Shown here piece by piece: positions 1 to 18,671 of a stretch of 18,671 bases of DNA (positions are counted from its first letter, which is position 1; every line of letters begins with the position of its first letter). The position numbers and the translations under genes are program-made. The notes beneath the pieces were generated by a model. That model searched no databases. It saw only the letters and a list, made by a program, of their open reading frames with translations, and was not told the origin of the DNA. Source of the DNA: Phycisphaerales bacterium UBA1910 (GTDB lineage Bacteria; Planctomycetota; Phycisphaerae; Phycisphaerales; UBA1924); assembly GCA_002337545.1 (NCBI GenBank), contig DDGE01000059.1:12601-31271 (forward strand), in the 5' to 3' direction.

Positions 1-1
1 G

Positions 2-586
2 GGCAGCGCGACCACGCTCACGATCGGCGCGGATCAGACCGTCCGCGGCAGCGGCCAGATCGGCGGGCAGGGCACCATTGTCAATCACGGGACGATCGAG
101 CCCGGCGGGTCACAGCGTGCGTTTTCGGTGATATCGCCCGTTGTATGCGGCCCGACTTCAGGCATGGTGTTCAACATCGGCGGAACCAACCCCGGCGAGC
201 ATGATGTGATCTCATTGACCAGCACGATCACAATCGACGGCGCCGTCACGGTTGAGTTTGATGATGGGTACGCCCCGGCCTTCGGCGACCGCTGGACCCT
301 GATCGATGGCGGCACCCAATCCGGCGAGTTCCAAAGTCTGGTGATCCTCGATCCTCCAGTCGGGCAGGTCTTCCGTGTGTTTACGAACCCCGATGAGACC
401 TATCTGATTCTCACATGCGATGCGGACCTGAGCGGTGATGGTGGGATCGACTTCTTTGATGTCTCGACCTTCCTGAGCTACTTCAGTGCTCAGGATGTCC
501 GTGGCGACCTCAACGGCGACGGGGTGTTCAACTTCTTTGATGTCTCCACATTCCTGCAGATCTATGGGCAGGGCTGCGATCTATGA
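2..586 (+). CDS. 3' end of exported beta-helix repeat protein with C-terminal GC-type dockerin (partial)
   Basis: The reading frame is open from the window edge, so the start lies upstream; 194 residues are visible. The first ~40 residues (motifs LTIGADQTVRGSGQI and GTIVNHGTIEPGG) match the internal repeat of the next gene, whose third repeat has LTIGANQTVRGSGQI. This points to a Gly/Thr/Asn-rich right-handed beta-helix of the autotransporter-passenger type. A linker follows (GDRWTLIDGG, then PPVGQVFRVF), which the next gene also has. The tail from base 416 is a dockerin-like module: CDADLSGDG, FFDVSTFLSYF, then a second copy DLNGDGVFNFFDVSTFL, ending in GQGCDL. Known from the family: such modules bind calcium and anchor exported proteins to a partner. 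Inferred: a surface or extracellular structural protein, tandem paralogue of the gene at 743. The ATG at 128 is internal and not a credible start. Confidence 0.82.
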   Translation, partial: GSATTLTIGADQTVRGSGQIGGQGTIVNHGTIEPGGSQRAFSVISPVVCGPTSGMVFNIGGTNPGEHDVISLTSTITIDGAVTVEFDDGYAPAFGDRWTLIDGGTQSGEFQSLVILDPPVGQVFRVFTNPDETYLILTCDADLSGDGGIDFFDVSTFLSYFSAQDVRGDLNGDGVFNFFDVSTFLQIYGQGCDL

Positions 587-634
587 CCAGCCCTGGGCCC
601 GATAACAACGGACCGGTTCAGCATTCTTGACATG

Positions 635-661
635 AAAAGCCCCCACACGACGGGGGTTTTT
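635..661 (+). terminator. Rho-independent terminator
   Basis: Stem CCCCC/GGGGG (640-644 with 652-656) around a 7-base loop, flanked by AAAAG before and TTTTT after. It lies about 50 bases past the stop of the partial beta-helix gene and ends that transcript before the next gene. Confidence 0.85.
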
Positions 662-682
662 ACGCCTATTCCCGGGTCGGTG

Positions 683-691
683 TGATATCCT
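683..691 (+). promoter_or_regulatory. Possible extended -10 promoter element
   Basis: TGATATCCT fits the extended -10 pattern TGnTAnnnT and lies just after the upstream terminator, about 50 bases before the ATG at 743. There is no convincing -35 box. The same pattern precedes the beta-propeller gene (12011), dnaN (15511) and bamA (17431). Prediction by eye only. Confidence 0.3.
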
Positions 692-742
692 AGAAGGCCC
701 GGCGCCGAGGGGGTGCCGACTGATCATTCTGAGAGGGACAAC

Positions 743-3700
743 ATGCACACACGACGCACGCTCGTTATCGCTTCGCTTCTTGCTGTCTGCGGCTCGACCG
801 CCGGGGCGCAGGTGACTTCATGGCTCAGCCCGGTTGATGGGAACTGGAATGAGGACCTGAAGTGGGATACGGGGATGTCGCCCAACTCGTCGGTGATGGA
901 GGTTGTACTCGGGCTGTCGGGCGCGTACACCGTGTTTACGACGAGCAACTGGAGCATCAACGATCTGACGATCAGCAACGCGGACGCGACCCTCTCCATC
1001 GCGGGAACCCAGCACACGCTGATGGGTGATCTGATGAACGATGGCACCGTCTTGGTGAATACGGACGCAACGATTTTCAACAAGTCACTCTACTTTGATG
1101 CCGACTCGGTGATCTCTGGCAGCGGCTCGATCGTGCTCAATGGCCTTGGCGGGCCGGATGATGCAAATGTATGGGTTGATGGCGACAATGTGGTCACGCA
1201 GGCGCTCGGTCACAGCATCCGGGGCGCTGGGCGTCTGCTGGGTGCGATGAATAACAACGGCCTGATCGTTGCGGACGAGCCGGCGGGGAATGGGCTTCAG
1301 CTGGAGGGGCTGCTCGACCAGACCGGCGGCGGCATGGCTGGCGCGGAGAACGGCGCGCAGCTGCTGCTGGGCAACGGCGGGACGACAATCGGTGGCGAGC
1401 TCTTCACGAACACCGGCGGTGAGATTTTCGTCAATCAGAACAACCACCACCTCGACGGGGTGAACCTGACGGGCGATCTGGTTATTCCGGGCGGCGGGCG
1501 GACGCTGATCATCGACAGCACCTTCCAGAACAACGGCACGATTTCGATCAACCCCGACCTCAATGTGTTCAACGGGGTGCTGCAATTCGATACCGATGCC
1601 ACAATCCAGGGCAACGGAACGATCAGCCTTTTCTCGGCCGGCGACTTCGGTGATGCTAGGCTGCTCACCAACGGGGTTGTGACGATGACCATCGGCACCA
1701 ACCAGACGGTTGAGGGCAGCGGCATGCTCGACGCATCCACCATGGGCACCATCATCAACCGCGGCACCGTCAACGCGAACGATCCGGCCCAGGCGCTGGG
1801 GCTCGACGGGACACATATCGGCGATGGCGGCATCTACCGTACCGACGGCGGCGAACTGAACCTGCGGAACGGCTCGAGCGTGAGCAACGCGGTCTTCGAC
1901 AGCTCCGCGGGCGGACGCCTCGAGCTGGACATCAGCGGAGCCGCGAGCGTTGCGGATTCGACGAACCTGGGCGACATCATCATCCGTGGGAGCGGCGGGC
2001 GGCTCGACATCGAGGGCACGATCGTGAACGATGGTGTGATCTCGATGAACCCGGAAGGCACGGTCTTCAACGCGAACATGCGGAGCCTCCTTGGCACCAC
2101 AATCGACGGCTCGGGCAGCATCGTGATGAAGCAGGTCGGCAGCACGGGCGATGCGCGGATCTACACGGAGAATGGCGCGATCCTGACGATCGGCGCCAAT
2201 CAGACGGTGCGTGGAAGCGGGCAGATCGAGACGATCGGTGACCCGATGGGCAGCATCGTGAATCTCGGAATCATCAACGGCGACGATGCAGCGTTCGATA
2301 TGACGCCCGCGCGTGAGCTTGAGCTCCGTGGCCATCACGACGGCATGGGCGTGGGCGTGTACCGCTCCGACGACGGGATCCTGCAGCTTGGCAATACGCT
2401 CGAGCTTAGCAACGGCACCTTCGACAGCTCCGGCGCTGGATTCGTCGGTGTGGTCAACGGCGGGACCGCGACGCTGAGCAACACGACCAACCTGGGCGAC
2501 ATGCGTATCCTCGGCAGCGGCGGCAAGATCGTCCTGATGGATGATTTCACCAATGAGGGCACCCTGACGATCAACAGCAACAGCAATGTATTCAACGCGT
2601 TGCTGGAGTTCGGGGCGAACGCCGTGCTCGATGGTGCGGGCACGATCCGCATGATCACGGCGGGGAACCTTGACGATGCGCAGCTCGACGCTGTCGATGG
2701 CGTTGACGGGACCATCTGGTTCGATCAGACGGTTGCGGGCAGCGGCACGATCGAGGGGCGCGGGACGGATGGTCGGATCATCAACATCGGGCTGATCCTC
2801 GCGGATGATCCGACGATGAGTCTTCAACTCAAGGGCAACCATATCGGTACACCGATGGCGGGAGCCGGTACCTATCGTGCCGCGGACGGGTGTGTACTCT
2901 CGATCGGCAGCGGCACATTCCTGGTTGGCGGCATTCTTGAGTCCGACGGGACGGGCGAGGTGGCCGCGACCAATGGCAACTCGGACCTTGTGAACGGCGT
3001 CAACAACGGCACGCTGGGCGTGTGGGGCAGCGGCGTGACGCTGCGGCTCACCGATTCGTTTATCAACGACGGCACGATCCACATCAACTCGACCGCGAAT
3101 ATCTTTAACGCGAGCCTGCGGCTCATGACGGACGGCCTGGAGATCTCTGGGACCGGCGAGATCGTGTTGACGACCGCGGGCAACGGGAACGACGCGCAGC
3201 TCGAGACCGACGGGGTGGGCATCGTGGCCACGCTGGGCGAGAACCAGACGCTGACGGGCGACGGTCTGATCAACGGCTCGTTCGAGATCCTGGGCACTAT
3301 TGACCCGGGTGGGCTCAGCCGGGTATTCACAACGGACGACATCACGCTCGCGGACAGCTCGCACATGATCTTTGATCTCGGCGGCGACGCTGCACCGAAC
3401 TTCGATCGGTACAGTGTGCGTGGCGGGCACACGATCGCGCTCGACGGGACGGCGACGATCAACCTTGAAACAGGCTACGCGCCGAGCTTTGGGGACACAT
3501 GGGATGTGATCGACGGGTTGACGACGGGCACATTCGACGAGGTCATCACCGGCATCGCGCCTCCCGGGCAGGTCTACCGCGTGATCTACGAGAACGATCG
3601 CGTGTATGTCATCCTGACATGTGACGCGGACCTCTCGGGCGACGGCGTGATCGACTTCTTCGATGTGTCCGAGTTCCTCAGCTACTTCTCGGCGCAGGAT

Positions 3701-3790
3701 GTTCGGGGCGATCTGAACAACGATGGGGTGTTCAACTTCTTCGATGTGTCGGTCTTCCTGCAGCTTTACAGCCAGGGCTGCAACCCTTGA
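743..3790 (+). CDS. Exported beta-helix repeat protein with C-terminal GC-type dockerin
   Basis: 1015 residues. The ATG at 743 is chosen because GAGAGGG (731-737) is well spaced before it and a clean signal peptide follows (basic MHTRR, then LVIASLLAVCGSTAGA, cleavage before Q). A GTG ten codons upstream has no such site. The mature protein has five long repeats, each anchored by an N-(D/N/E)-G-T/V...IN...(V/I)FN segment at residues 99, 263, 429, 604 and 775. Each continues with a G-x-G-(S/T/E)-I strand, a GENQT/GANQTVxGSG strand and a YR-D-G strand. This resembles autotransporter-type beta-helix repeats; no C-terminal beta-barrel is present. The last 56 residues (from base 3620) are the dockerin module with Cys at both ends. 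Inferred role: long surface-associated structural or adhesive protein held through the dockerin. Substrate or ligand unknown. The preceding partial gene is its tandem paralogue. Confidence 0.85.
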   Translation: MHTRRTLVIASLLAVCGSTAGAQVTSWLSPVDGNWNEDLKWDTGMSPNSSVMEVVLGLSGAYTVFTTSNWSINDLTISNADATLSIAGTQHTLMGDLMNDGTVLVNTDATIFNKSLYFDADSVISGSGSIVLNGLGGPDDANVWVDGDNVVTQALGHSIRGAGRLLGAMNNNGLIVADEPAGNGLQLEGLLDQTGGGMAGAENGAQLLLGNGGTTIGGELFTNTGGEIFVNQNNHHLDGVNLTGDLVIPGGGRTLIIDSTFQNNGTISINPDLNVFNGVLQFDTDATIQGNGTISLFSAGDFGDARLLTNGVVTMTIGTNQTVEGSGMLDASTMGTIINRGTVNANDPAQALGLDGTHIGDGGIYRTDGGELNLRNGSSVSNAVFDSSAGGRLELDISGAASVADSTNLGDIIIRGSGGRLDIEGTIVNDGVISMNPEGTVFNANMRSLLGTTIDGSGSIVMKQVGSTGDARIYTENGAILTIGANQTVRGSGQIETIGDPMGSIVNLGIINGDDAAFDMTPARELELRGHHDGMGVGVYRSDDGILQLGNTLELSNGTFDSSGAGFVGVVNGGTATLSNTTNLGDMRILGSGGKIVLMDDFTNEGTLTINSNSNVFNALLEFGANAVLDGAGTIRMITAGNLDDAQLDAVDGVDGTIWFDQTVAGSGTIEGRGTDGRIINIGLILADDPTMSLQLKGNHIGTPMAGAGTYRAADGCVLSIGSGTFLVGGILESDGTGEVAATNGNSDLVNGVNNGTLGVWGSGVTLRLTDSFINDGTIHINSTANIFNASLRLMTDGLEISGTGEIVLTTAGNGNDAQLETDGVGIVATLGENQTLTGDGLINGSFEILGTIDPGGLSRVFTTDDITLADSSHMIFDLGGDAAPNFDRYSVRGGHTIALDGTATINLETGYAPSFGDTWDVIDGLTTGTFDEVITGIAPPGQVYRVIYENDRVYVILTCDADLSGDGVIDFFDVSEFLSYFSAQDVRGDLNNDGVFNFFDVSVFLQLYSQGCNP
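1037..3300 (+). repeat. Five internal protein-level repeats of about 164-175 codons
   Basis: The anchor segment (N-D/N/E-G-T/V, hydrophobic-N, then V/I-F-N) begins at bases 1037, 1529, 2027, 2552 and 3065, a spacing of 492, 498, 525 and 513 bases. The copies are diverged at DNA level but keep the order of beta-strand motifs, as in an old internal duplication. The first copy is the least regular and the last runs into the linker before the dockerin. Confidence 0.75.
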
Positions 3791-3815
3791 TCTGAAACGG
3801 TTCTGATCATCATGA

Positions 3816-3840
3816 CCCCGCCCGATCGGGCGGGGTTTTT
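3816..3840 (+). terminator. Rho-independent terminator
   Basis: Perfect 20-base palindrome, stem CCCCGCCC with GGGCGGGG around a GATC loop, followed by TTTTT. It sits 26 bases after the stop of the large beta-helix gene. Confidence 0.92.
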
Positions 3841-3855
3841 CGTGCGCGAACGGTT

Positions 3856-3873
3856 CCCCACTCTTTAGTGGGG
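3856..3873 (+). other. Small perfect hairpin in the intergenic leader
   Basis: Inverted repeat CCCCACT/AGTGGGG around a CTTT loop, 16 bases past the preceding terminator and about 90 bases before the next start codon. There is no T-run after it, so it is probably not a terminator. It could be an operator or part of the mRNA leader of the lamin-tail-like gene; function unknown. Confidence 0.45.
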
Positions 3874-3964
3874 ACGGATCAGTCGGAACCGGGGTTACAA
3901 CTGTTATCGAAGCACGAGAATACTGGCTTATCTGCACCCGCATGATCTCAGAGAGGAACACACA

Positions 3965-4747
3965 ATGAGCAACAAACGAACCACGATCACTACACTCACC
4001 ATGCTCGGTATGTGCGCCGGCTTTACGACGGGAGCGGAGCGCGATGTCCAGTTCACGATCATCATCCCGGAATCGCGCCAGATTGTGATCGACAACACGG
4101 GGTCTGATCCCATCGATCTGAGCGGTTGGCGTTTCTGCACGCACAACACGAGCGTCGTTCGACGATACACGAGCCCGGATGGGTTTGATGGGATCACGAT
4201 CGATCCCAACGCGAACCTTGTTCTGCACCTGAACAACGATGCGCCTGCGGAGCTTGATAACCATATCAATGTCGCGGATCTGGGCGGGTCGTTTGCGGAT
4301 TTCGAGTTCGACGCGTTCGCGATGGGGTTGTACTTCCCAGGAACGGGTGGCGATGTGAGTTTCGGTAACGGGGACACCATCGCGGATCATGTGCAGTGGT
4401 CGTTGTTCGGGCTCAACAACTTCACGGCCGACGATCGAACGGACGAGGCGGTCGCGGGTGGTGTGTGGACAGCGGTGGATGATTGGATCGCGGTCCGCCC
4501 GGACACGGTGCTGATCGAACTGAACGACCCGACCTTCGCGGAGCTGCACGGGCCGATGGATTACCGCGTATTCAACGCGTGCCCGGCGGACCTCAATGGC
4601 GATGGTGTGCTGAACTTCTTTGATGTCTCGGCATTCCTCAGCGCGTTCAGTGCGATGGACCCGGCCGCGGATTTTTCGGGGGATGGGATGTTTACCTTCT
4701 TTGATGTGTCGCAGTTCCTGTCGGCATTCAACGCGGGGTGCCCCTGA
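3965..4747 (+). CDS. Exported lamin-tail-like domain protein with GC-type dockerin
   Basis: 260 residues; ATG preceded by GAGAGGAA (3951-3958). Residues 1-24 form a signal peptide (MSNKR, hydrophobic stretch, cleavage near TTGA). Residues ~30-165 resemble a lamin-tail domain, the beta-sandwich common in bacterial secreted proteins: IVIDNTGSDPIDLSGWRF near 40-57, a P-x-G...ITIDPNANLVLHLN segment near 71-90, and IADHVQWS near 139-146. The lamin-tail call rests on this strand pattern and spacing, not on catalytic residues. The dockerin module covers residues 206-260 (CPADLNGDG, two FFDVS-x-FLSAF units, final NAGCP). Inferred: a small extracellular binding or structural module on the cell surface; ligand unknown. 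An alternative is another immunoglobulin-like beta-sandwich. Confidence 0.75.
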   Translation: MSNKRTTITTLTMLGMCAGFTTGAERDVQFTIIIPESRQIVIDNTGSDPIDLSGWRFCTHNTSVVRRYTSPDGFDGITIDPNANLVLHLNNDAPAELDNHINVADLGGSFADFEFDAFAMGLYFPGTGGDVSFGNGDTIADHVQWSLFGLNNFTADDRTDEAVAGGVWTAVDDWIAVRPDTVLIELNDPTFAELHGPMDYRVFNACPADLNGDGVLNFFDVSAFLSAFSAMDPAADFSGDGMFTFFDVSQFLSAFNAGCP

Positions 4748-4791
4748 GACTCGTTCTCAATTGTCGTTGGATATTGATACATGAGCATCTG

Positions 4792-4840
4792 AACCCCGCC
4801 CGATAGTGCTGCGACTGCGCAGGACTTCTCGGGTGGGGTT
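4792..4840 (+). other. Nested inverted repeat (weak terminator or leader RNA element)
   Basis: Outer stem AACCCCGCCCGA (4792-4803) pairs with TCGGGTGGGGTT (4829-4840) with a single G-U. Inside it an inner hairpin, CTGCG-ACTG-CGCAG (4809-4822), forms a second stem. There is no run of Ts afterwards, so this is not a standard terminator, although it lies 44 bases past the stop of the lamin-tail-like gene. It may attenuate read-through into the cytochrome gene or be part of its leader. Confidence 0.5.
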
Positions 4841-4850
4841 CAATTTGGTG

Positions 4851-4935
4851 GAGATTCTCCGCTTTTGCGGAGATTCTCTTGCAAGAAAGCCGACGATCGA
4901 CAAGAATCTATGTTCGAGGGACCACTTGATGGTCC
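4851..4935 (+). other. Two further hairpins in the cytochrome gene leader
   Basis: Hairpin one (4851-4878): GAGA-T-TCTCCGC, loop TTTT, GCGGAGA-T-TCTC, eleven pairs with one T-T mismatch; it also forms a direct repeat of GGAGATTCTC at 4850 and 4869. Hairpin two (4919-4935): GGACCA-CTTGA-TGGTCC. Both lie between the nested repeat at 4792-4840 and the cytochrome start at 4977. Read by eye; no known riboswitch signature was recognised. Confidence 0.45.
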
Positions 4936-4976
4936 TATACCCCAATAGTCGACTTCTGTTCGGTGGAGAGTCTGGC

Positions 4977-6857
4977 ATGAACAACCCGAGTCGTTTCGAA
5001 TCGCTGCGCCGCAAGGGCACATTGGTATGCGGTATGTCTGTCGGTGCCGTGTTGGTAACCTATGCCCTCGCAGGCGGACCCGGCGGGAGTTTGCCCGTTC
5101 AAACCACGCTCAATGATTTCGCACTCCCGGGCACGCAGCCCGGAGGGCTCCATCTTGAGCACCCCATGGTGGGTGCGGATTCGTGCGCGAGCTGTCACGG
5201 GTTCTATGACGAGATGCATGACCCATACTCGACTTGGTCCGCGTCCATGATGGGCCAAGCGATGCGCGATCCGATTTTCCTCGCGGCGATGACAATCGCG
5301 AATCAGGATGCTGACTTCAGCGGTGCGCTCTGTATCCGTTGTCACTCGCCCAGCGGGTTCCTTGAGAACCGCCATGTCCCGACTGACGGCTCGGCGCTCA
5401 ACGACATGGATCTGCAGGGAGTCGGGTGTAACTTCTGTCATCGCATGGTCGACCCCGTGTACACCCCCGGCGTCTCGCCGGATGTTGATCAGCAGATCAT
5501 CATGGATCTGGGTTCCGACGCACCGACCCCGGCACAGACCCACAGCGCCGCGTTCATCGTGGACCCGCAGGACCGACGACGCGGCCCATACGACGAGGGT
5601 GAAAACTTCTTCTATCACCAGTGGGAGCAGTCGCCCTTCCATCAGGAATCGCAGATGTGCGCGACCTGTCACGATGTGTCCAACCCGATCTACTCGGCCC
5701 AGCCCGACGGGACCTACACGCTCAACGACCTCGACGCGGCGCATCCGACGGGCAATGTATACGACACCTTCCCCGAGCAGCGCACCTATTCGGAATGGCT
5801 GATGAGTGACTTTGCTCAGGGCCCGATCGCGATCGGCGATCGGTACGATACACAGCTTGTTGAGGTCTCGAGCTGTCAGGACTGTCACATGCCGGAGCTT
5901 GAATCTCCCGCGTGTCTGTTCGAGGACGATCGCCCGGACTACTCGAACCACTCGTTCGTTGGCGCGAACAACTGGGTCCTCAATGCGATCCGCAACCTGA
6001 ACCCCAACGACTTTGTGACGGGGCTTCAGCCGAACCTCGTCGCGAACCAGATCACGCGCACGGAGAACTTCATGGCCGCCGCGTCGGACATGGAACTCTC
6101 GCTCGTCGAGGGGAACCTGAATGTTCGCATCATCAACCAGACTGGGCATAAACTCCCGACCGGGTACCCCGAGGGTCGCCGGATGTGGCTCAATGTCCAG
6201 TACTTTGACGCATCCGACGCGATGATCGCGGAGCACGGCGCGTATGACGAATCGACCGCGGTCCTGACACAGAATGACACCAAGGTCTACGAGATGAAGA
6301 TCGGTCTCGACGAGCACGCGAGCGCCCTGACGGGCATCCCCGCGGGTGAGTCGTTCCACCTGGTCCTTGCGAACAAGGTGTTCAAGGACAACCGGATCCC
6401 ACCCCGTGGGTTTACCAACTCGAACTTCGAGATGATCCAGGCCGCTCCTGTCGGGTATTCCTACACCGATGGGCAGTACTGGGACGACACGCAGTTCGAG
6501 ATCCCGGCGGGTGCTGTGCGTGCGGAAGTCAAGCTCCGTTATCAGCTCACGAGCAAGGAGTACATCGAGTTCCTCCGCGACGAGAACACGACCAACACGC
6601 TCGGCCAGGAGATCTATGACGAGTGGGTCATCAACGGCAAGAGCCCGGTGATGGATATGGATATGGGTTCCATCAACATCTCGGCACCGTGCCCCGCAGA
6701 CCTGACGGGCGATGGCGTGCTGAACTTCTTTGACATCAGCGCCTTCCTGAACGCGTACAACTCCATGGATCCGATCGCGGACTTCACGGGCGACGGCGTG
6801 TTCAACTTCTTCGATGTGTCCGCGTTCCTCAACGCGTACAACGCGGGTTGCCCGTAA
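4977..6857 (+). CDS. Exported pentaheme cytochrome c family protein with GC-type dockerin
   Basis: 626 residues from the ATG at 4977, which has GGTGGAGAG (4962-4969) in front and a signal peptide behind it (residues 1-32: basic SLRRKG, then a hydrophobic core ending in ALAGG). The frame is open back to a GTG at 4806, but that lies in a palindrome with no ribosome site. Five heme c attachment motifs CxxCH are visible: CASCH (70), CIRCH (119), CNFCH (151), CATCH (228) and CQDCH (300). Residues ~380-560 form a beta-rich domain with NQTGHKLPTGYPEGRRMW and IPPRGF, segments I associate with multiheme cytochromes of the c554-like superfamily. The dockerin is residues 572-626, ending NAGCP. Known: covalent hemes are added outside the cytoplasm and carry electrons. 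Inferred: a redox protein held at the cell surface; electron donor and acceptor cannot be told, and no terminal-reductase signature was recognised. Confidence 0.87.
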   Translation: MNNPSRFESLRRKGTLVCGMSVGAVLVTYALAGGPGGSLPVQTTLNDFALPGTQPGGLHLEHPMVGADSCASCHGFYDEMHDPYSTWSASMMGQAMRDPIFLAAMTIANQDADFSGALCIRCHSPSGFLENRHVPTDGSALNDMDLQGVGCNFCHRMVDPVYTPGVSPDVDQQIIMDLGSDAPTPAQTHSAAFIVDPQDRRRGPYDEGENFFYHQWEQSPFHQESQMCATCHDVSNPIYSAQPDGTYTLNDLDAAHPTGNVYDTFPEQRTYSEWLMSDFAQGPIAIGDRYDTQLVEVSSCQDCHMPELESPACLFEDDRPDYSNHSFVGANNWVLNAIRNLNPNDFVTGLQPNLVANQITRTENFMAAASDMELSLVEGNLNVRIINQTGHKLPTGYPEGRRMWLNVQYFDASDAMIAEHGAYDESTAVLTQNDTKVYEMKIGLDEHASALTGIPAGESFHLVLANKVFKDNRIPPRGFTNSNFEMIQAAPVGYSYTDGQYWDDTQFEIPAGAVRAEVKLRYQLTSKEYIEFLRDENTTNTLGQEIYDEWVINGKSPVMDMDMGSINISAPCPADLTGDGVLNFFDISAFLNAYNSMDPIADFTGDGVFNFFDVSAFLNAYNAGCP

Positions 6858-6880
6858 GGCATCGAGCCGTACTCAAACAC

Positions 6881-6910
6881 AAAGCACCGGCGTTGGCCGG
6901 TGCTTTTTTT
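6881..6910 (+). terminator. Rho-independent terminator between convergent genes
   Basis: Stem AAAGCACCGG with CCGGTGCTTT, extended by one C-G pair, loop GTTG, followed by a T-run. It ends the cytochrome transcript. The A-rich left flank gives only a short T-run on the other strand, so it may also serve the convergent regulator gene, less efficiently. Confidence 0.9.
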
Positions 6911-6927
6911 ATGCCTGAGATGTGCGG

Positions 6928-7518
6928 TTACTCATCGCGTGTGCGTCGATCCGGTGCGAGGATGACGCCGATGTTGACGATCCGTTTGCCCTCGCCGGGG
7001 TGGGACTCCTTGCAGATATCCCACAGACGCCCGAGGAGTTTGTTGACCTCTTCGAGCTGCTCATCATCCACCCAGGCGCTGTAGAGGCCGGCGTGGGTGT
7101 CGCGGTTTGGGCCTCGCACGACGGATTTGGGACTCGCGGTCGCTCGCTCATGCAGGCGTGACATCAACCGCCCGACCGCGTTGCCGTAGGCCTGGTGATA
7201 CGAGACATTGTCCGGGTCCTTGATGTTGTGCTTGGTCGCAACGGATCGTGCGATCGGTTCGTAGAGCTGCTCGTAGCGTTTGCCGGCGAGCCGTTTTTCG
7301 CCCTCGGTGATCAGGCCCGCATCGACGAGTTGCTCGATATGCGGGTAGAGCGATGTGCGCGAACGCCCGGTGAACTCTGCAATCTCAGCGACGGAGCATT
7401 CCTCCAGTGTGCAAACGGCATTGAGTACTTCGACCCGGATCGGGGATGCGAGGACCCACATGGTCTGCGCGTCGTAGATCACCTTCAGTTCTTTCAGTGC
7501 TTTACGCTTCTTGCTCAT
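6928..7518 (-). CDS. Winged-helix (ArsR/HTH-type) transcriptional regulator
   Basis: 196 residues on the - strand; ATG preceded by GGGAG at good spacing. Residues ~18-92 read as an ArsR-like winged helix: WVLASPIRVEVLNAV (helices 1-2), CSVAEIAEFTG then SRTSLYPHIEQLVDAG (helix-turn-helix, recognition helix near 52-66) and LITEGEKRLAGKRYEQLYEP (wing). No metal-binding Cys pair typical of metal-sensing ArsR proteins stands out. The C-terminal ~100 residues have no recognised domain and could sense a ligand or dimerise. It lies alone on the opposite strand between the cytochrome and serine protease genes and diverges from the latter across 279 bases, so it may control that protease, itself, or the wider tagged set; that is inference. 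The rest of the gene looks normal, with composition like its neighbours. Confidence 0.82.
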   Translation of the reverse strand: MSKKRKALKELKVIYDAQTMWVLASPIRVEVLNAVCTLEECSVAEIAEFTGRSRTSLYPHIEQLVDAGLITEGEKRLAGKRYEQLYEPIARSVATKHNIKDPDNVSYHQAYGNAVGRLMSRLHERATASPKSVVRGPNRDTHAGLYSAWVDDEQLEEVNKLLGRLWDICKESHPGEGKRIVNIGVILAPDRRTRDE

Positions 7519-7687
7519 GAAAACTCCCGCGAGATCTGTTTCCGTGCTTTATTACAGCGTCATGATACGATTGCACAAAATTGACGAAAAGCAAACCCTT
7601 TCTTTGCCTCGACCCAAGAGAAGTGTGGGCGTCAAGGATTTATAGTACAGTGAATGACCCAGAGTCGGGTCGTTGACGAGGGGCTCA

Positions 7688-7704
7688 TAGATCATGATCA
7701 TCTA
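7688..7704. promoter_or_regulatory. Palindromic candidate operator between divergent genes
   Basis: TAGAT and ATCTA flank a 7-base centre, and the internal GATCATGATC (7690-7699) is itself palindromic. The core TCATGAT recurs at 7560-7566, nearer the regulator gene. A TTGACG at 7673-7678 could be a -35 box just upstream. Position and symmetry suit a binding site for the neighbouring winged-helix regulator, but this is a guess from symmetry alone. Confidence 0.3.
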
Positions 7705-7748
7705 CTCGGATGGGTGGACGCAAAGTTGTGCGGCTGTATCGTGTCATG

Positions 7749-7790
7749 TCCTCTCGTGGTCATGCGTGTGACAACACGCAACTGAGAGGA
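7749..7790 (+). promoter_or_regulatory. Leader that could sequester the ribosome binding site
   Basis: TCCTCTC (7749-7755) is perfectly complementary to the ribosome site GAGAGGA (7784-7790) of the protease gene. Between them a perfect hairpin, GCGTGT-GACA-ACACGC (7764-7779), would bring the two arms together. Folding would hide the ribosome site 7 bases before the ATG at 7798. No known ligand-binding core was recognised. Confidence 0.4.
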
Positions 7791-7797
7791 GTTAGAC

Positions 7798-9936
7798 ATG
7801 AAGAGCAGGATTATGCAATGCACGGCGCTCATCGCCGCGCTCGGTGCCCTTGTTGGGGCGAATGCCGAGGAGCAGACGAGCACCGATCTCCGTGACGGGA
7901 TGCGTCCCGTGGCAACCGACGGGGCGACGGTCCATCCCGTATCCGGCGAGAACAATCTCAACGCGTCTTTCCGGGCACGGGTTTCGAACGATCAGCGCAT
8001 TTCGTTGCCTCACCCGCCGTTTGACGAGATCCCCGAGATGCCCATGCCCGAGCCGCTTGCTCCGGGTGTGCTGCCAATGAACGACGGGCCGTCCACGATG
8101 ACCTTCCATGACGCGACGACCAATGAGACTTACGAGCTGGATGCTCGTCCATCATCGCGCGCCACCGGCGGGCAGAGTGCTGAGGGCGAATACCCTGGAT
8201 TCAACAACATCGTCGATACCTCGATCGAGAACACACGATCGTTCGGGAACATGTCCCTGGCGAGCGGGCTCGACTCGTGGCCTCGCTCGGGCAATGTCAA
8301 GCTTGTCATGCGTTTCACCGATGCAAGCGGGATCACGCGTTGGTTTGCCTGCTCTGGTTCGATGCAGGACCCCGGGGTTGTGCTCTGTGCGGCCCACTGC
8401 GTGTACGCACGCACCCCCAACGGCATCGTCATCAACGACTGGGCGGACCAGATCTATGTGTACCCGGGGTGGGATGGCGACAATAACAATGGCCCATTCG
8501 GGTTCCCCGACTCCGATGAAGTGATCGAAAACTTTGGTGCCGCGTACGGAACCGCATTCCTTGCTGGCACAAACTACATCAACAACGGTGACTTCGATTC
8601 GGACTGCGGGCTCATCCGCCTGACACGCGGGTCATCGCGGAATATCGGTGCCCTCACCGGTTACTTCGCGTGGGCATGGGGCGGCAGCTGCGCCACCATT
8701 CAGTCGCGAACATACCACAACTTCTCGTACCCATCAGAGAGCTGCCCCACCGCGGGTCTGCACAACGGGCGCGACATGTACTACTGGAACGGGACGATCG
8801 ATGATTGCCCCGGCAATCAGCTCCACCTGGACACGGGCGGGGGCAACTGCTTCGACACCGTCTGGGGTGGCATGTCGGGCTCGGGCATGTACTACATCGA
8901 TGGCGATAACCGGTATGTGCACGCCGTCTGTTCAAACTCGAACCGAACCACAAGCGGCAACTACGCGCGGCTTTGGGAAACCTTCGTCGATGACATGACG
9001 AACTTTGAGAACGACACCCGCGGCACCACGCTCGACATCGAGCCGCTCCGTTTCCGTGCTCGTGGATCGACCAGCGTCCTTCAGGGACAGGCGATGGACG
9101 ACTCGTGCGATGTCACCATGGTCAACGCGACAAACTTCAACCCCGCGAGCGACACATACACCATCCGCGTCTACCTCTCGACGAACAACAACATCTCGTC
9201 GTCGGATACGCTCCTGGCAACCTGGAACTACTCGGTTGATTTCGCGGCGATGCAAAACTTCAACTTCGTCGTTCCCGCGCCGATCATCCCGATCGATACG
9301 CCTCCGGGTGATTACTTCATCGGGATCGAGCTCGATTCGGGCACCGACGCGTGGTCGAGCAACAACGACACGGACACCTGGGACGCGCAGCCGATCACGG
9401 TCCTCGAAGCGTTCGCTGATCTCGACGCGACCCTTTGCGATGCGACATCGGGCACCTACTACCAGGGTGAAACGATTAATGTTCTCCACCGCACTTGGAA
9501 CTACGGCGATCGTCCCGCGGACGACACGCGTCTCGAGTTCCGTGCATCGACGAACACCATCATCTCAACCTTCGACACCTTTATGGAAGAGCGGTTCTAC
9601 GGCACCGTGAATATCAACGATGATGTGTATGTGAACTCGTTCGTCCAGATCCCTTCAGATCTCTCGCCGGGCACCTACTACATCGGTACGATCGTCGAAA
9701 CCTCGGACAATGAGTCCTCGACCGCGAACAACTCGATCGCGGACACGAACACGATCACCGTGATCGAGTGTGTCCCCGATCTCACGGGCGATGGTCAGGT
9801 CAACTTCTTCGATGTGTCCGCATTCCTCAGCGCGTACAACGCGATGGATCCGATCGCGGACTTCAACAACGATGGGATCTTCAACTTCTTTGATGTGTCC
9901 GCATTCCTCAATGCGTACAACGCTGGATGTCCATAA
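7798..9936 (+). CDS. Exported trypsin/V8-like serine protease with CARDB-like domains and GC-type dockerin
   Basis: 712 residues; ATG with GAGAGGA 7 bases upstream. Signal peptide at residues 1-23 (MKSR, hydrophobic stretch, cleavage after GANA). Residues ~24-140 may be a propeptide. The protease domain spans ~150-400 with a complete chymotrypsin-fold triad: His200 in LCAAHC, Asp269 in DCGLIRL and Ser360 in GGMSGSG. The GxSGS context resembles glutamyl-endopeptidase (V8) and related bacterial proteases. The domain has many Cys residues, suggesting disulfides. Two beta-sandwich repeats follow (~415-540 and ~545-655), each with a PxGxYxIG(I/T) motif typical of CARDB-like adhesive domains. The dockerin is residues 658-712 (CVPDLTGDG to NAGCP). 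Inferred: a surface-held extracellular protease; specificity cannot be read from the sequence. It has its own terminator. Confidence 0.88.
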   Translation: MKSRIMQCTALIAALGALVGANAEEQTSTDLRDGMRPVATDGATVHPVSGENNLNASFRARVSNDQRISLPHPPFDEIPEMPMPEPLAPGVLPMNDGPSTMTFHDATTNETYELDARPSSRATGGQSAEGEYPGFNNIVDTSIENTRSFGNMSLASGLDSWPRSGNVKLVMRFTDASGITRWFACSGSMQDPGVVLCAAHCVYARTPNGIVINDWADQIYVYPGWDGDNNNGPFGFPDSDEVIENFGAAYGTAFLAGTNYINNGDFDSDCGLIRLTRGSSRNIGALTGYFAWAWGGSCATIQSRTYHNFSYPSESCPTAGLHNGRDMYYWNGTIDDCPGNQLHLDTGGGNCFDTVWGGMSGSGMYYIDGDNRYVHAVCSNSNRTTSGNYARLWETFVDDMTNFENDTRGTTLDIEPLRFRARGSTSVLQGQAMDDSCDVTMVNATNFNPASDTYTIRVYLSTNNNISSSDTLLATWNYSVDFAAMQNFNFVVPAPIIPIDTPPGDYFIGIELDSGTDAWSSNNDTDTWDAQPITVLEAFADLDATLCDATSGTYYQGETINVLHRTWNYGDRPADDTRLEFRASTNTIISTFDTFMEERFYGTVNINDDVYVNSFVQIPSDLSPGTYYIGTIVETSDNESSTANNSIADTNTITVIECVPDLTGDGQVNFFDVSAFLSAYNAMDPIADFNNDGIFNFFDVSAFLNAYNAGCP

Positions 9937-9968
9937 TCGTCATCTGAACACTGCGTCACATAGTGCAG

Positions 9969-9994
9969 CCGGGCCCTTCGGGGCCCGGTTTTTT
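9969..9994 (+). terminator. Rho-independent terminator with TTCG tetraloop
   Basis: Stem CCGGGCCC with GGGCCCGG closed by a TTCG loop, then six Ts; 33 bases past the protease stop codon. A textbook strong terminator. Confidence 0.95.
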
Positions 9995-10006
9995 CGTGTG
10001 TAGATG

Positions 10007-10034
10007 TTGGAAAATGCCCCATAATCAGTACACT
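10007..10034 (+). promoter_or_regulatory. Possible sigma70-like promoter
   Basis: TTGGAA (10007-10012), 16 bases, then TACACT (10029-10034), placed just after the upstream terminator and 43 bases before the metalloprotease ATG. Match to consensus is moderate; prediction by eye. Confidence 0.3.
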
Positions 10035-10077
10035 ACATGACCACGAACACCATTCTTTATATTGAGGACCCCACAAC

Positions 10078-11934
10078 ATGATCCGGAATGCCACAGCGCC
10101 ATACGCGTTGGTCGCCGTCTGCGCATTTGCGTGCAGCGCCCACGCACAGCACACGACCGAGCTCTCGCCCTTGTTCGAAACGAACGCCCCAACCCTGATT
10201 TCGATCGATGGTCGACTGGTTGAGTTCAGCCCGCTGCACACAACGACCCACGAGCAGGTCAACGCGATCAGCGTGCGCGGGCGCGTGGGCGATCAGGGTT
10301 CGTTCGTGCTCGCGCGCGGTCCGGTCGGGGTCGAGGGCAACGCGTGGATCAACGATCGTGCCTACACGATCCGAGGCACCCACAATGGTGAACTCCGGGT
10401 CACTCGCTTCCACCATCACGACCGCGCATGCGCCGGTGCGTTGATCCCCGAAAACGGGAACGCCTCGCCCAACCCGCAGACGCAGGGCTCGTCGTTCGAA
10501 ACGGCTCGGGGCGGCGATGATCCCTTGAGCACGCGCATCCTCATTGTGTACGACCAGCTCGCGGAGAACGATGTCTCCGATATGCTCGCGTTCGCGGCAG
10601 CGATCGTGGAATCCGCGAACACGAGTTACGACAACTCTGATATCAGCACAATGGGCCTCGAGCTCGCGGGGATTCATAAGATCGAGAATCGCCCCGACGG
10701 CAACTCGGGCGTGATTCTCCGGCAGCTCACAAACCAGCACGACCTCACTTTCGATTCGATCCATCGGGTGCGGGATGCGCTCGACGCGGACATCGTTGCA
10801 CACCTGACGGAGCTCAACGATGCGTGCGGACGCGGGTGGCTGAGCCCGAACAACGGCAGCTACATGTTCACCACAACCGATGTTGATTGTGCGTTGGGGA
10901 ACCTGAGCTTTGCGCACGAGGTCGGGCACAACCAAGGGTGCACGCACGACCCGGACAACGCGGGCGGCGCGTATGTTGAGTACGGGTACGGGCATCGGTG
11001 GGACTCAAACCGGTACAGATCCGTCATGGCGTACTCGCCGGGCTCTCGCCTTATGTACTTCTCCAACCCTGATGTCACACACAACGGGTTCCCCACGGGG
11101 ATCGCGAACCAGCGCGACAACGCGCGTGTGCTCGAGCTCACGCAGAACACCATGGCAAACCATCGCGTGGGCGATGGCACGGGTCCCGATTGCGATCACA
11201 ACGCGCTCCCCGACGACTATGAGATTGCGCTGGACCCGTCGCTCGACCTCGATCGCAACGGCGAACTCGATGCCTGCCAGATCCTCGCCAACCCTGCGCT
11301 CGATTGCGACGCGGACGGCACACTCGATACGCAGCAGGTGCTCCCGCGCGTCGGGCACATCCTCGGGATCGCCACCGAGTTCGGAGGCGGGATTGAACCC
11401 GAGTTCAATGCCGACACGCTCCTGCCCGAGGCGAGCGGCGATGTCGTCGTGCGTATCAATGCGAACGGGGATCTGGGCACCACGAACGAATACCTCGCGC
11501 TCGTCTTCAATAACGGGGCATACATCCGTGATGTGTTCACGGGTTCTGGTTCCGATTGCGAAGTAACGGGGCTCACGACGAGCTTCATCGTGAGTGACGA
11601 ACTGTTCAACTCGATGAACGAAGAGGGGATCTCGCTTCGCGTGGTGCCGACGCTCGATGTCGATCTGGGTGTTTGCGCCTATATGCACCTCGATGTATCG
11701 TTCGAGTATCACACACCGAACATCGAACTCGATGCGAACGGGGACGGTGTCATCGACTCGTGCGCCTGCCCTGGAGATCTCAACGGCGACGGCGAACTCA
11801 ACTTCTTTGATGTCGCGGATTACATCGCGGCCTATCAGAGCATGAACCCGGTCGCGGACTTCAACGGCGACGGGCAGTTCAACTTCTTCGATGTCACCCA
11901 GTTCATCGTCGCCTTCAATGAGGGATGCCCGTAA
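10078..11934 (+). CDS. Exported reprolysin-like zinc metalloprotease with calcium-loop repeats and GC-type dockerin
   Basis: 618 residues; ATG with GAGGA (10064-10068). Signal peptide at residues 1-23, ending AHA before Q. Residues ~24-145 look like a propeptide; Cys118 (ACAGA) could act as a cysteine switch, which is speculation. The catalytic domain (~150-360) has the metzincin zinc site HEVGHNQGCTHD with ligands His280, His284 and His290 and catalytic Glu281, and a Met-turn SVMAYS at Met317, which fits the M12B/reprolysin-type group. After it come short Asp-rich loops (DCDHNALPDDYE, DLDRNGELDACQ, DCDADGTLDTQQ) like thrombospondin type-3 calcium loops, then a ~170-residue beta-rich region of unknown type. 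The dockerin is residues 564-618 and is the most diverged second half among the set (FFDVTQFIVAFNEGCP). Inferred: a surface-held protease next to the serine protease, both perhaps degrading external protein. Confidence 0.87.
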   Translation: MIRNATAPYALVAVCAFACSAHAQHTTELSPLFETNAPTLISIDGRLVEFSPLHTTTHEQVNAISVRGRVGDQGSFVLARGPVGVEGNAWINDRAYTIRGTHNGELRVTRFHHHDRACAGALIPENGNASPNPQTQGSSFETARGGDDPLSTRILIVYDQLAENDVSDMLAFAAAIVESANTSYDNSDISTMGLELAGIHKIENRPDGNSGVILRQLTNQHDLTFDSIHRVRDALDADIVAHLTELNDACGRGWLSPNNGSYMFTTTDVDCALGNLSFAHEVGHNQGCTHDPDNAGGAYVEYGYGHRWDSNRYRSVMAYSPGSRLMYFSNPDVTHNGFPTGIANQRDNARVLELTQNTMANHRVGDGTGPDCDHNALPDDYEIALDPSLDLDRNGELDACQILANPALDCDADGTLDTQQVLPRVGHILGIATEFGGGIEPEFNADTLLPEASGDVVVRINANGDLGTTNEYLALVFNNGAYIRDVFTGSGSDCEVTGLTTSFIVSDELFNSMNEEGISLRVVPTLDVDLGVCAYMHLDVSFEYHTPNIELDANGDGVIDSCACPGDLNGDGELNFFDVADYIAAYQSMNPVADFNGDGQFNFFDVTQFIVAFNEGCP

Positions 11935-11963
11935 CAGCCCGGCAGAAACCATTTTCAAACACG

Positions 11964-11989
11964 AACCGGGCTCGAACGCTCGGTTTTTT
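11964..11989 (+). terminator. Rho-independent terminator
   Basis: Stem AACCGGGC with GCTCGGTT (one G-U pair), loop TCGAAC, followed by a T-run, 29 bases past the metalloprotease stop. Confidence 0.85.
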
Positions 11990-12010
11990 CTGTGCCACTC
12001 TTCCGATCCG

Positions 12011-12019
12011 TGGTACGCT
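12011..12019 (+). promoter_or_regulatory. Possible extended -10 promoter element
   Basis: TGGTACGCT fits TGnTAnnnT and ends 21 bases before the ATG at 12041, which would give a very short leader containing only the ribosome site. No clear -35 box. It is similar to the element before bamA (TGGTATGGT). Confidence 0.35.
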
Positions 12020-12040
12020 TATCTCAGAGAGAGGTACATC

Positions 12041-13138
12041 ATGCAGAATCGCTCAATGATCGTCCCCGCGTGCGCGGGGCTTGCCATCGCCACAACACTT
12101 GGATTCGCCGGGGCCGGGCCGGTGATTCATGAATCGGGCTGGTCGCTCGAATCCAACTTCCCGTTCACCAACCCGATGTCCGCGTTGATCAACCCTGACG
12201 ATGGCTTCATCTATCTGGGAATCCGCTCGGGCGATCTCTATCGCGCTGATTCGATCGGGAACACCGAGGTGCTCCTGCAGACGGACGATATCGCGGGGAT
12301 CTCGCACGATCCGAGCACTGGGGCGTTGTTCTTTTCGGAAGACTTCCCGGGCAACATCATGCGCGTCGATCTCAACTCCGACGGCACGGCCACCGAGACG
12401 ACATGGGTCTCCGGGTTCCACTCGGGCGATGATGACCCCGTCGGGATCACGCCTGTTCCATTGGATTACTCGGGCACCCTGCTGACGCCGGGCATGATGG
12501 TTTCGACGGATCGTGGCTTCAATGGAGCCAATGATATCTGGACCTGGTCCCCCACGGTTGCCCAGGATGAGATCCAGATCCGCGACGACAACGGCACGCT
12601 CATCGACACGGTGGATATTGCTGTTCAGGGCTCAACGATCGCGATGGCTGATCGCGGTGGCGGGATCAAACTCCTCGCGGATGACGCATCGGTTTCCACC
12701 CTGAGCACGACGGGTGCAACCTTCACCGAGGCGCAGGGGATCGTGTTCGATACACGCTCGATGGATCTGCTCGTCATCGATGCGGATCACGACGCGGTGT
12801 ATCGGGTGAGCCCCTCCGGCGAGGCCTCCCTGATGTTCAGCGGACTGGGGATCTCCACCACGAACTGGGGCGGGATCAACATCGACGACGATGGCACAAC
12901 CCAACGCATCGTGATTTCATCGGTTGATAACGACCGGGTGTATGTGTTCTCCATCACACCGCCGTGTTCGGATGCGGATCTTGCGGGTCCCTTCGGGCAG
13001 CTGGATTTCTTCGATGTATCCGCTTTTCTCAGCGCCTACAACGCGCAGGAACCGGAAGCCGACTTCAACAACGACGGTATATTCAACTTCTTTGATGTCT
13101 CCGCCTTCCTTTCCGTTTTCAACGCCGGGTGCCCCTGA
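12041..13138 (+). CDS. Exported beta-propeller-like protein with GC-type dockerin
   Basis: 365 residues from the ATG at 12041, preceded by GAGAGAGG (12027-12034). The frame extends upstream to 11891, but that would overlap the previous gene and its terminator. Signal peptide at residues 1-25 (MQNRS, then hydrophobic to GFAGA). The body (~30-305) has repeated strand pairs such as DGFIYLGIRSGDLYRAD, TGALFFSEDFPGNIMRVDL and DLLVIDADHDAVYRV, the pattern of an NHL/SMP-30-like beta-propeller. No catalytic residues are identifiable, so it may be a binding protein or a lactonase-like enzyme. The dockerin is residues 309-365; its first calcium loop is altered (ADLAGPFGQLDFFD in place of DLxGDGxxxFFD), while the second is intact. 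Own terminator downstream. Function unknown beyond export and tagging. Confidence 0.78.
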   Translation: MQNRSMIVPACAGLAIATTLGFAGAGPVIHESGWSLESNFPFTNPMSALINPDDGFIYLGIRSGDLYRADSIGNTEVLLQTDDIAGISHDPSTGALFFSEDFPGNIMRVDLNSDGTATETTWVSGFHSGDDDPVGITPVPLDYSGTLLTPGMMVSTDRGFNGANDIWTWSPTVAQDEIQIRDDNGTLIDTVDIAVQGSTIAMADRGGGIKLLADDASVSTLSTTGATFTEAQGIVFDTRSMDLLVIDADHDAVYRVSPSGEASLMFSGLGISTTNWGGINIDDDGTTQRIVISSVDNDRVYVFSITPPCSDADLAGPFGQLDFFDVSAFLSAYNAQEPEADFNNDGIFNFFDVSAFLSVFNAGCP

Positions 13139-17410: not shown

Positions 17411-17439
17411 TTGTGCTCAGCGTCCGGCGCTGGTATGGT
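17411..17439 (+). promoter_or_regulatory. Putative bamA promoter
   Basis: TTGTGC (17411-17416), a 17-base spacer, then TGGTATGGT whose TATGGT (17434-17439) is an extended -10 box. The predicted transcript would begin just before the ribosome site GAGG at 17451-17454. The spacer also contains CAGCG/CGCTG as an inverted repeat. Confidence 0.45.
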
Positions 17440-17460
17440 TTCGGTTCAAAGAGGTTAACT

Positions 17461-18671
17461 TTGCCCACGCACAAACGAGTTCAAACCCGAACCACCCTCA
17501 ATGCTGCCCGCTGCGCCCTCATCGCGGGAACACTCCTCGCGGGCGTCCCGACCACCACCCTCCACGCACAAAGCGATCCCACGGGCGATGTGGATGTCGC
17601 CCCGGACGATCTGGGGCTCTACGAGAACCGGGTCATCGCTGAGGTGTATATCCGTCCGGCAGAAATCGACGGCGAGGCCTCTCCCCTGAGCGACAGCGCC
17701 CGCCAGCAGGCCATCAATAACACCCGATCTCAGCCGGGCATCGTGTTCGATGCCGACCTGATCCGCGATGACATCCGTCGATTGAACCGACTCGGCACCT
17801 TCTCTCGCGTTGAGGTTTATGCCGGCGTCAACGACGACGGCTCCGTCACCCTCGTGTTCGAGGTCCTTGAGCGACGCGTCGTTGCGGATGTCCAGGTCGC
17901 TGGGAACGAGCAGATCAACGACGCGCAGATCGCCGCGGTTGTCGATGTTGTGACGGGCACCCCGATCGACCGATTCCAGATCGATCGATCCGCTCGACGC
18001 ATCGAGGAGTTGTACCGCCAGAAGGGATACTACTACGCACGCGTCTCGGTCGACGAGGACGAGCTCCGCGACACCGGGCTCGTGCTGTTCCGAATCCTTG
18101 AGGGCGATCGGCTCAAAGTCACCGGCATCCGGTTCACCGGCAATGAGTCGTTCTCCGACAAGCAGCTGCGACGCGAGCTCGAAACCAAGGTCGCCACCTT
18201 CTTCAGCAAGGGCCAGCTCGACGACGACAAACTCGATACGGATATCGCAAACCTGATCGAGTTCTACCGCGATCGCGGGTATCTCGACATCCGCGCGGAC
18301 CGGCTGGTCCAGCCCGCACCGAACGGACGCGAATCGATCGTGACCTACATCATCGAGGAGGGGCAGCTGTACACCCTCCGCTCGGTGCAGATCCAGATCG
18401 AATCGGAAGACGGGCAGCAACCTGTATTCGATCAGAAGCAGATCGCCGGGCTCATCAGCATCAAAGCCGGGGATGTGTACTCTGTCCGCGAACTCGAAAA
18501 ATCGATCGAGACCGTACGCAACGCGTATGGGCAGATGGGGTATGTCGACGCGGCCGACTCGCGAGCGAACAACATCTTCCGCGTCGAGAAACGCGATCCA
18601 AATGAGCCCGTCGTCGATCTGATCTTCGCGATCAGCGAGGGCCCGCGCTATCGCGTGGGCGAGGTCATCAT
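17461..18671 (+). CDS. bamA: Outer membrane protein assembly factor BamA, N-terminal part (partial)
   Basis: About 403 residues are visible; the gene runs off the right edge. The start is TTG at 17461: GAGG lies 6 bases upstream and a signal peptide follows directly (basic HKRVQTRT, then CALIAGTLLAGV, cleavage after LHA before QS). Known: BamA inserts beta-barrel proteins into the outer membrane; its periplasmic POTRA domains receive substrates. Four POTRA-like units are seen: ~53-128 (RVIAEVYIRP...VEVLERR), ~129-208 (VADVQVAGNEQI...YRQKGYYYARV), ~209-295 (TGIRFTGNESF...YRDRGYLDIRA) and ~296-403 (VFDQKQIAGLISIKAGDVYS...AYGQMGYVDAA). Repeated G-N-E and R-x-x-GY motifs are typical. The C-terminal barrel lies outside the window. 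It shows that the host has a diderm envelope. An Omp85 paralogue is possible, but BamA is the best reading. Confidence 0.88.
   Translation, partial: MPTHKRVQTRTTLNAARCALIAGTLLAGVPTTTLHAQSDPTGDVDVAPDDLGLYENRVIAEVYIRPAEIDGEASPLSDSARQQAINNTRSQPGIVFDADLIRDDIRRLNRLGTFSRVEVYAGVNDDGSVTLVFEVLERRVVADVQVAGNEQINDAQIAAVVDVVTGTPIDRFQIDRSARRIEELYRQKGYYYARVSVDEDELRDTGLVLFRILEGDRLKVTGIRFTGNESFSDKQLRRELETKVATFFSKGQLDDDKLDTDIANLIEFYRDRGYLDIRADRLVQPAPNGRESIVTYIIEEGQLYTLRSVQIQIESEDGQQPVFDQKQIAGLISIKAGDVYSVRELEKSIETVRNAYGQMGYVDAADSRANNIFRVEKRDPNEPVVDLIFAISEGPRYRVGEVI

Follow-up and report, generated by a model that had tools for sequence, protein, structure and literature searches.

Why should seven neighbouring genes encoding proteins of such different kinds all finish in one and the same short module? 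The question is raised by an 18,671-nucleotide stretch (hereafter the window) of contig DDGE01000059.1 of the planctomycete Phycisphaerales bacterium UBA1910. An earlier reading, made from the letters of this DNA alone, had described seven genes with a common Cys-bounded, two-unit C-terminal module, interrupted by a single untagged gene. Each of the seven open reading frames does end in the module, with scores of 40.3–54.1 bits against the NCBI model NF041540 (curated cut-off 29), and the one interruption is an ArsR-like regulator on the minus strand (6928–7518). The module is probably a disulfide-closed C-terminal dockerin acting as a proteome-wide surface-sorting or anchoring tag, which would be read by one co-evolving receptor that is no recognisable cohesin.

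The module and its cargo

The module comprises approximately 54 residues arranged in two units and bounded by cysteines. The consensus of 103 canonical-length copies from this genome reads C-P-A-D-L-N-G-D-G-x-L-[ND]-F-F-D-V-S-A-F-L-x-A-[YF]-N-A-x-D-P-x-A-D-F-[NT]-G-D-G-x-F-[ND]-F-F-D-V-S-A-F-L-x-A-[YF]-N-A-G-C and is mostly followed by a proline and the stop. A phenylalanine pair is found in both units, and the two recognition faces are nearly identical and hydrophobic. The predicted fold is that of a dockerin, in which two calcium-binding F-hands pack as they do in dockerins of known structure. NF041540 names such proteins 'GC-type dockerin domain-anchored protein', which implies anchoring and names no receptor; the genome-specific code, the orthologue test and the contrast with PEP-CTERM presented below belong to this analysis. 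The gathering score of the Pfam model Dockerin_1 (PF00404) is passed by one of the seven window proteins, that of 10078–11934.

Cellulosomal dockerins display a duplicated F-hand with calcium ligands at positions 1, 3, 5, 9 and 12 and recognise their partners around positions 10–12 and 17–19, as described in two reports (PMC5590126, PMC4728124). The present module resembles them (e.g. 2y3n, from Bacteroides cellulosolvens) in its duplicated F-hand, ligand positions, fold and in a head and tail that are held together. In contrast, the clasp is here apparently a pair of cysteines, FF replaces Ser-Thr or Met-Ala, no cohesin was found, and the cargo consists of approximately 150 mostly unrelated proteins with almost no glycoside hydrolases among the families listed. 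Three tags possess a single unit (L109, C69:14468; L072, C47:18110; L069, C44:21274), as though recombination between units had removed its counterpart, and they provide a natural test of whether a single recognition face suffices. In a frame of more than 1700 residues (L088, C58:6344) the module is internal and is followed by a stretch that appears RHS-like by eye.

Collecting all module proteins of the genome, a check proposed with the sequence-only reading, gave 150 scored matches from 170 candidates, 147 of them over the NF041540 cut-off, on 43 contigs; contig ends, stretch ends or N truncate 13 of the 150, so that some matches may belong to a single gene. The idea that the seven window genes form one complex of their own is not sustained by this distribution, and the array of tagged genes to which they belong is therefore one cluster of a proteome-wide system. 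The module is followed by at most one residue in 126 of 142 complete copies, and 111 proteins end in GCP. A simple and crude rule, applied to frames with a readable start, recognised a signal-peptide-like stretch in 122 of 138 tagged frames (none in the other 16 by this rule) as against 369 of 1380 shuffles. Blast clustering sorted the 148 tagged bodies of sufficient length into 91 groups, of which 77 have a single member.

The cargo families were scanned in 135 of the 150 tagged proteins, 15 being dropped for gaps or length, and the families considered are the 25 commonest of 36 and the 25 commonest of 54 in the two halves of the protein set. FG-GAP propellers account for 21 of the 135 proteins. 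The families listed further include reprolysins, subtilases, M14, M43, M64 and M10 peptidases, haem peroxidases, a lectin, a CotH protein, a peptidyl-arginine deiminase and phosphatases, together with one GH16 and one CBM6. The cargo is thus not mostly glycoside hydrolases, as that of a cellulosome would be, and such a mixture agrees with the earlier proposal of a general tag rather than a sugar-degrading complex. Within the class the tag was found in 46 of 120 genomes, 11 of which hold at least 31 copies (with up to 45 scored per genome). Among 199 genomes drawn from the phylum it occurs in 12 and is abundant in five only, all of this family.

A genome-specific code that changes jointly

Each genome examined displays its own spelling of positions 9–21, much alike in the two units and common to unrelated proteins. 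The comparison covers 92 parsed modules of the 150 here and 88 modules (81 parsed) of five other tag-rich genomes, the latter being a non-random sample from the top of the NF041540 ranking. The code is [ND]FFDVSAFLxAYN in this genome, NFADLNxVLSxFG in G090, DFADLSxVLxxFG in G113, DLSDLAxLLAxFG in G106, NAxDLAxLLGxWG in G096 and xAADLAxLLxAWG in G084. With 16 modules for each genome (15 for G106), identity is 0.62 within genomes versus 0.33 between them, a difference reached by none of 200 label shuffles. Similarly, unit 1 matches unit 2 at 0.65 in its own protein, 0.61 in another protein of the same genome and 0.33 in other genomes. The module type and its NCBI name were already known, while the genome-specific code and its joint change are new with respect to the literature found. 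That search, which most subscription journals lay outside, returned no description of such a code, no paper on the 'GC-type dockerin', none joining a dockerin with PEP-CTERM and none saying what these dockerins bind.

Orthologues decide, in part, between descent and selection as the origin of the code. Six loci of metagenome-assembled genomes (MAGs) that carry other codes (LQ in L211; FS in L213 and L215; xF-DFLEFQN in L214; LA/LQ-DI in L217 and L218) provided 25 reciprocal-best pairs with this genome, 19 of which involve genes of the array. In 25 of 25 pairs the tag is closer to the tags of its locus neighbours (0.72) than to that of its orthologue here (0.39). The associated p value of 1.2e-5 is too small because the pairs are not independent: the loci are few, some are related, and the lamin-tail gene is present in all six. 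Where the code is FF, as at four further loci, the tag of the orthologue was the closer match in 23 of 30 comparisons (L206 10/10, L207 7/9, L208 2/2, L209 4/9), with the tag parser off register in some rows (entries VS, IS) of these same-code loci and of the genome itself only. Thus, tags are inherited with their genes under a constant code and change jointly when the code moves. The simplest cause of such joint change would be one shared partner that imposes the code.

The synonymous codons of the 103 modules differ at 0.82 of the codon-usage expectation, which is near saturation, and the tags have therefore not been recently copied. GAT is used in 97 of 103 FFD codons because ACGT is scarce genome-wide, and with the bias traced to this avoidance recent gene conversion was rejected as the source of the uniform code. 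The tetranucleotide is absent from the window (89 expected) and occurs 98 times versus 2234 expected, both strands counted, in the window taken together with approximately 0.34 Mb of the same genome (L013–L110); before Val, Asp is encoded 410 times by GAT and 8 times by GAC. Such scarcity suggests that a restriction or modification system specific for ACGT has long acted on this genome.

Candidate receptors and the relation to PEP-CTERM

In the mechanism that we favour, the tagged proteins would be exported through Sec by means of their signal peptides and the tag would fold around two loops that presumably hold calcium. Its two flanking cysteines would close it by a disulfide, which is proposed because both are jointly present. 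The recognition faces would be formed by loop positions 10–11 and the following helix (FF-DVSAFL here). One receptor, common to the tagged cargo of the cell, would offer a site for either unit, and it would have changed with the lineage while the cargo tags changed along. It may serve to retain at the cell surface a varied set of approximately 150 proteins, among them enzymes, propellers and redox proteins. In other lineages, relatives of one or more of these would be held by PEP-CTERM and exosortase instead. The code predicts that the receptor of each genome takes its own FF, LQ, FS, LS, FA or AA tags and not others. If that receptor is new, it would represent a new way for a diderm bacterium to fill its surface and a source of orthogonal protein-docking pairs for biotechnology.

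The dockerin tag and PEP-CTERM are alike in being short C-terminal tags on many exported proteins and in occurring on relatives of the same lamin-tail body. In contrast to PEP-CTERM, the tagged C-termini lack a VPEP motif, a transmembrane helix and a basic tail, and consist instead of a predicted folded calcium module. The tails of the best 120 of 1178 relatives of the lamin-tail protein comprise 95 two-unit dockerins ended by Cys, as recognised by a loose pattern, 12 PEP-CTERM-like tails (P0092 with VPVP rather than VPEP), five single Cys-bounded units ending in WGxC and three dockerins without the final Cys; five have none of these. The single-unit endings (P0091, P0101, P0103, P0106 and P0111) are Cys-bounded F-hands finishing in WGxC(P) and are possibly a sister tag of the two-unit one. 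PEP-CTERM counts were 6, 10, 15, 9, 10, 2, 2, 0, 0 and 0 in ten tag-rich genomes of the order versus at least 64, 59, 51, 33, 36, 59, 7 and 0 in eight tagless ones (p 0.016), a comparison in which nine of the ten tag-rich genomes are of one family and from which G102 (9 tags, no PEP-CTERM match) was left out. Outside the order, G106 carries both kinds of tag.

An exosortase was identified in 117 of 120 class genomes, this one included, which rules out a strict replacement of exosortase by the dockerin tag. G113, G119, G084 and G102 combine one or two exosortases and dockerin tags with no PEP-CTERM match. In both task and cargo the dockerin tag seems comparable to PEP-CTERM, which it does not exclude. 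We propose, tentatively, that a folded dockerin is the address label of a large part of the exported proteome, that a non-cohesin receptor rewrites the labels of its cargo, and that this arrangement largely took over from PEP-CTERM in part of the order.

The three main alternatives are not fully exclusive. In the first, an outer-membrane machine reads the tag as an export signal, as the type IX secretion system (T9SS) does its C-terminal domains, after which the tag may be removed or an anchor may take its place. The strictly C-terminal place of the tag, mostly on signal-peptide proteins, would suit such a machine, and so would the Omp85, OmpH, LpxC and LpxD genes that adjoin the array and the exchange with PEP-CTERM, itself a sorting tag. 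However, the T9SS protein SprA was found in none of 120 class genomes by a search whose control was also silent, and a folded, disulfide-closed calcium module would be unusual as an export signal, its double face suiting a binding partner better. We consider an export signal unlikely, if well short of negligible. The search for a receptor across genomes that was proposed with the sequence-only reading covered SprA and, by the Pfam model and two profiles, cohesin.

It is rather doubtful that the tagged proteins are collected by a divergent cohesin or scaffoldin, or by one encoded in the missing 12% of the genome, although the predicted dockerin fold with duplicated recognition faces would favour such a partner. 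A species-specific code, typical of cellulosomal pairs, points in the same direction; Pages et al. in 1997 reportedly described one for these pairs. Cohesins themselves are present in the class, the Pfam model recognising them in 19 of 120 genomes. For freshwater planctomycetes of the Nemodlikiaceae, moreover, a 'planctosome' has been proposed that is built from cohesins and dockerins and includes lamin-tail and reprolysin parts (PMC6461901). The two systems are alike in belonging to planctomycetes, in being non-cellulosomal and in drawing proteins of the lamin-tail and reprolysin kinds into a dockerin system. There the lamin-tail protein bears a cohesin as anchor, whereas here the lamin-tail protein of 3965–4747 bears the tag, in a genome without a cohesin match.

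Against a cohesin stand the profile searches. The Pfam model gave no match in this genome, which at 88% completeness may lack a contig, and none over the cut-off in the 11 tag-rich class genomes, of which G096 alone has a match, below it. Over the 120 class genomes cohesin and tag are independent (8 genomes with both; Fisher p 0.80). With tags in 46 genomes and cohesins in 19, this independence raises the question of what these dockerins bind. With a profile built from twelve class cohesins the best E was 0.37 in this genome, and three of the 31 genomes of the family (G127, G148 and G120) reached E<=0.001. The first two are tag-rich and G120 has three tags, as has G135, whose match lies just above the 0.001 limit. 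The one strong match in the family, that of G127, consists of several cohesins in a row where a contig ends; from the look of its proline-threonine linkers, which appear Chloroflexota-like, it is perhaps contamination. A second profile, made by adding this row to the first, gave no match at E<=5 in this genome and none at E<=0.001 in the 11 tag-rich class genomes, with no match in G096; the G148 match weakened to E 0.036. Cohesin was consequently set aside as the receptor, the Pfam model (in this genome and 120 class genomes) and the two profiles having given none over the cut-off here, and no cohesin-bearing scaffoldin, as expected of a cohesin-dockerin system or cellulosome, was found in this genome. 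Together with the predicted fold, these searches bear out the description of a dockerin-like, non-cellulosomal module without a cohesin.

Self-association, in which the tags bind one another by their aromatic faces to form a surface mesh that needs no separate receptor, is decidedly improbable: the symmetric, nearly identical hydrophobic faces would allow it and the code of a self-binding tag would likewise drift jointly within each genome, but codes such as AA or LS are not obviously sticky. A passive stability cap, or a copied module without a partner whose uniform code stems from descent or gene conversion, is very unlikely, since the original duplication of the tag and the unit loss or recombination visible in the three one-unit modules are outweighed by the divergence of synonymous sites, by tags that track their orthologues at same-code loci yet change jointly at the recognition positions in every other-code pair, and by a GAT bias accounted for by ACGT avoidance.

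The array and the tagged genes of the window

The window lies in a contig of 44 kb, within a genome of 3.53 Mb. The array begins approximately 12 kb upstream of the window, not at its edge, and comprises 14 tagged genes in 25.7 kb of the contig, where 1.1 would be expected at the mean density of the genome. Locus L206, from another Phycisphaerales MAG, preserves the order of ten of these genes in orthologues whose bodies are 47–89% identical, and other MAGs hold parts of the array with more diverged bodies. The array is therefore old. Downstream it adjoins an outer-membrane biogenesis cluster (Omp85/BamA, OmpH/Skp-like, LpxD and LpxC; window 17413–18671 and L095 1–4671), with transketolase and DnaN genes in between. 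The downstream genes scanned encode transketolase, DnaN, Omp85, OmpH, LpxD, LpxC, a Rce1-like protein and a VTT protein, and a further four, of which one lies inside the window, lack a Pfam match; no case for an array neighbour as receptor emerged from them.

The seven tagged genes of the window lie on the plus strand. The first (2..586, tag 416–577) is the 3' end of a beta-helix-like gene that begins upstream. It extends over L094 10300–12600 and window positions 1–586, and the assembly contains two N runs inside repeats that resemble those of its paralogues; an upstream start is accompanied by a signal-like stretch. The second (713..3790, tag 3620–3781) encodes a beta-helix-like exported protein that forms one blast cluster with the first, and its inner ATG at 743 opens a signal-like stretch. 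The lamin-tail-like protein (3965..4747, tag 4580–4741), whose family served for reading the tag swaps, is followed by a multihaem protein with five CXXCH motifs (4806..6857, tag 6690–6851), for which the inner ATG at 4977, directly before a signal-like stretch, is the likelier start. The untagged regulator (6928..7518) has an ArsR/HTH_20-like Pfam match; its membership of the tag system is not known. Beyond it lie a trypsin-like exported protein (7798..9936, tag 9769–9930), a reprolysin-family metalloprotease (10078..11934, tag 11767–11928) and a protein judged propeller-like by eye (11891..13138, tag 12971–13132), for which the inner ATG at 12041 is the likelier start.

The sequence-only reading had called all seven proteins exported and had assigned a fold to each. 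Signal stretches are seen by eye in six, including the lamin-tail protein, where the crude rule misses it; for the first gene export follows only from the upstream part beyond the N gaps. The pentaheme label is upheld by the five CXXCH motifs and the metalloprotease by its reprolysin match and the sequence HEVGHNQGCTH. The lamin-tail match is weak (29.9 bits, below the cut-off of 34.3), the serine protease is recognised from its AAHC and GMSGSG motifs only, and the beta-helix and propeller labels come from inspection, with no Pfam match naming the fold. The tag of the propeller-like protein deviates from the others in that its first loop is longer and poor in calcium ligands (DLAGPFGQLDFFD).
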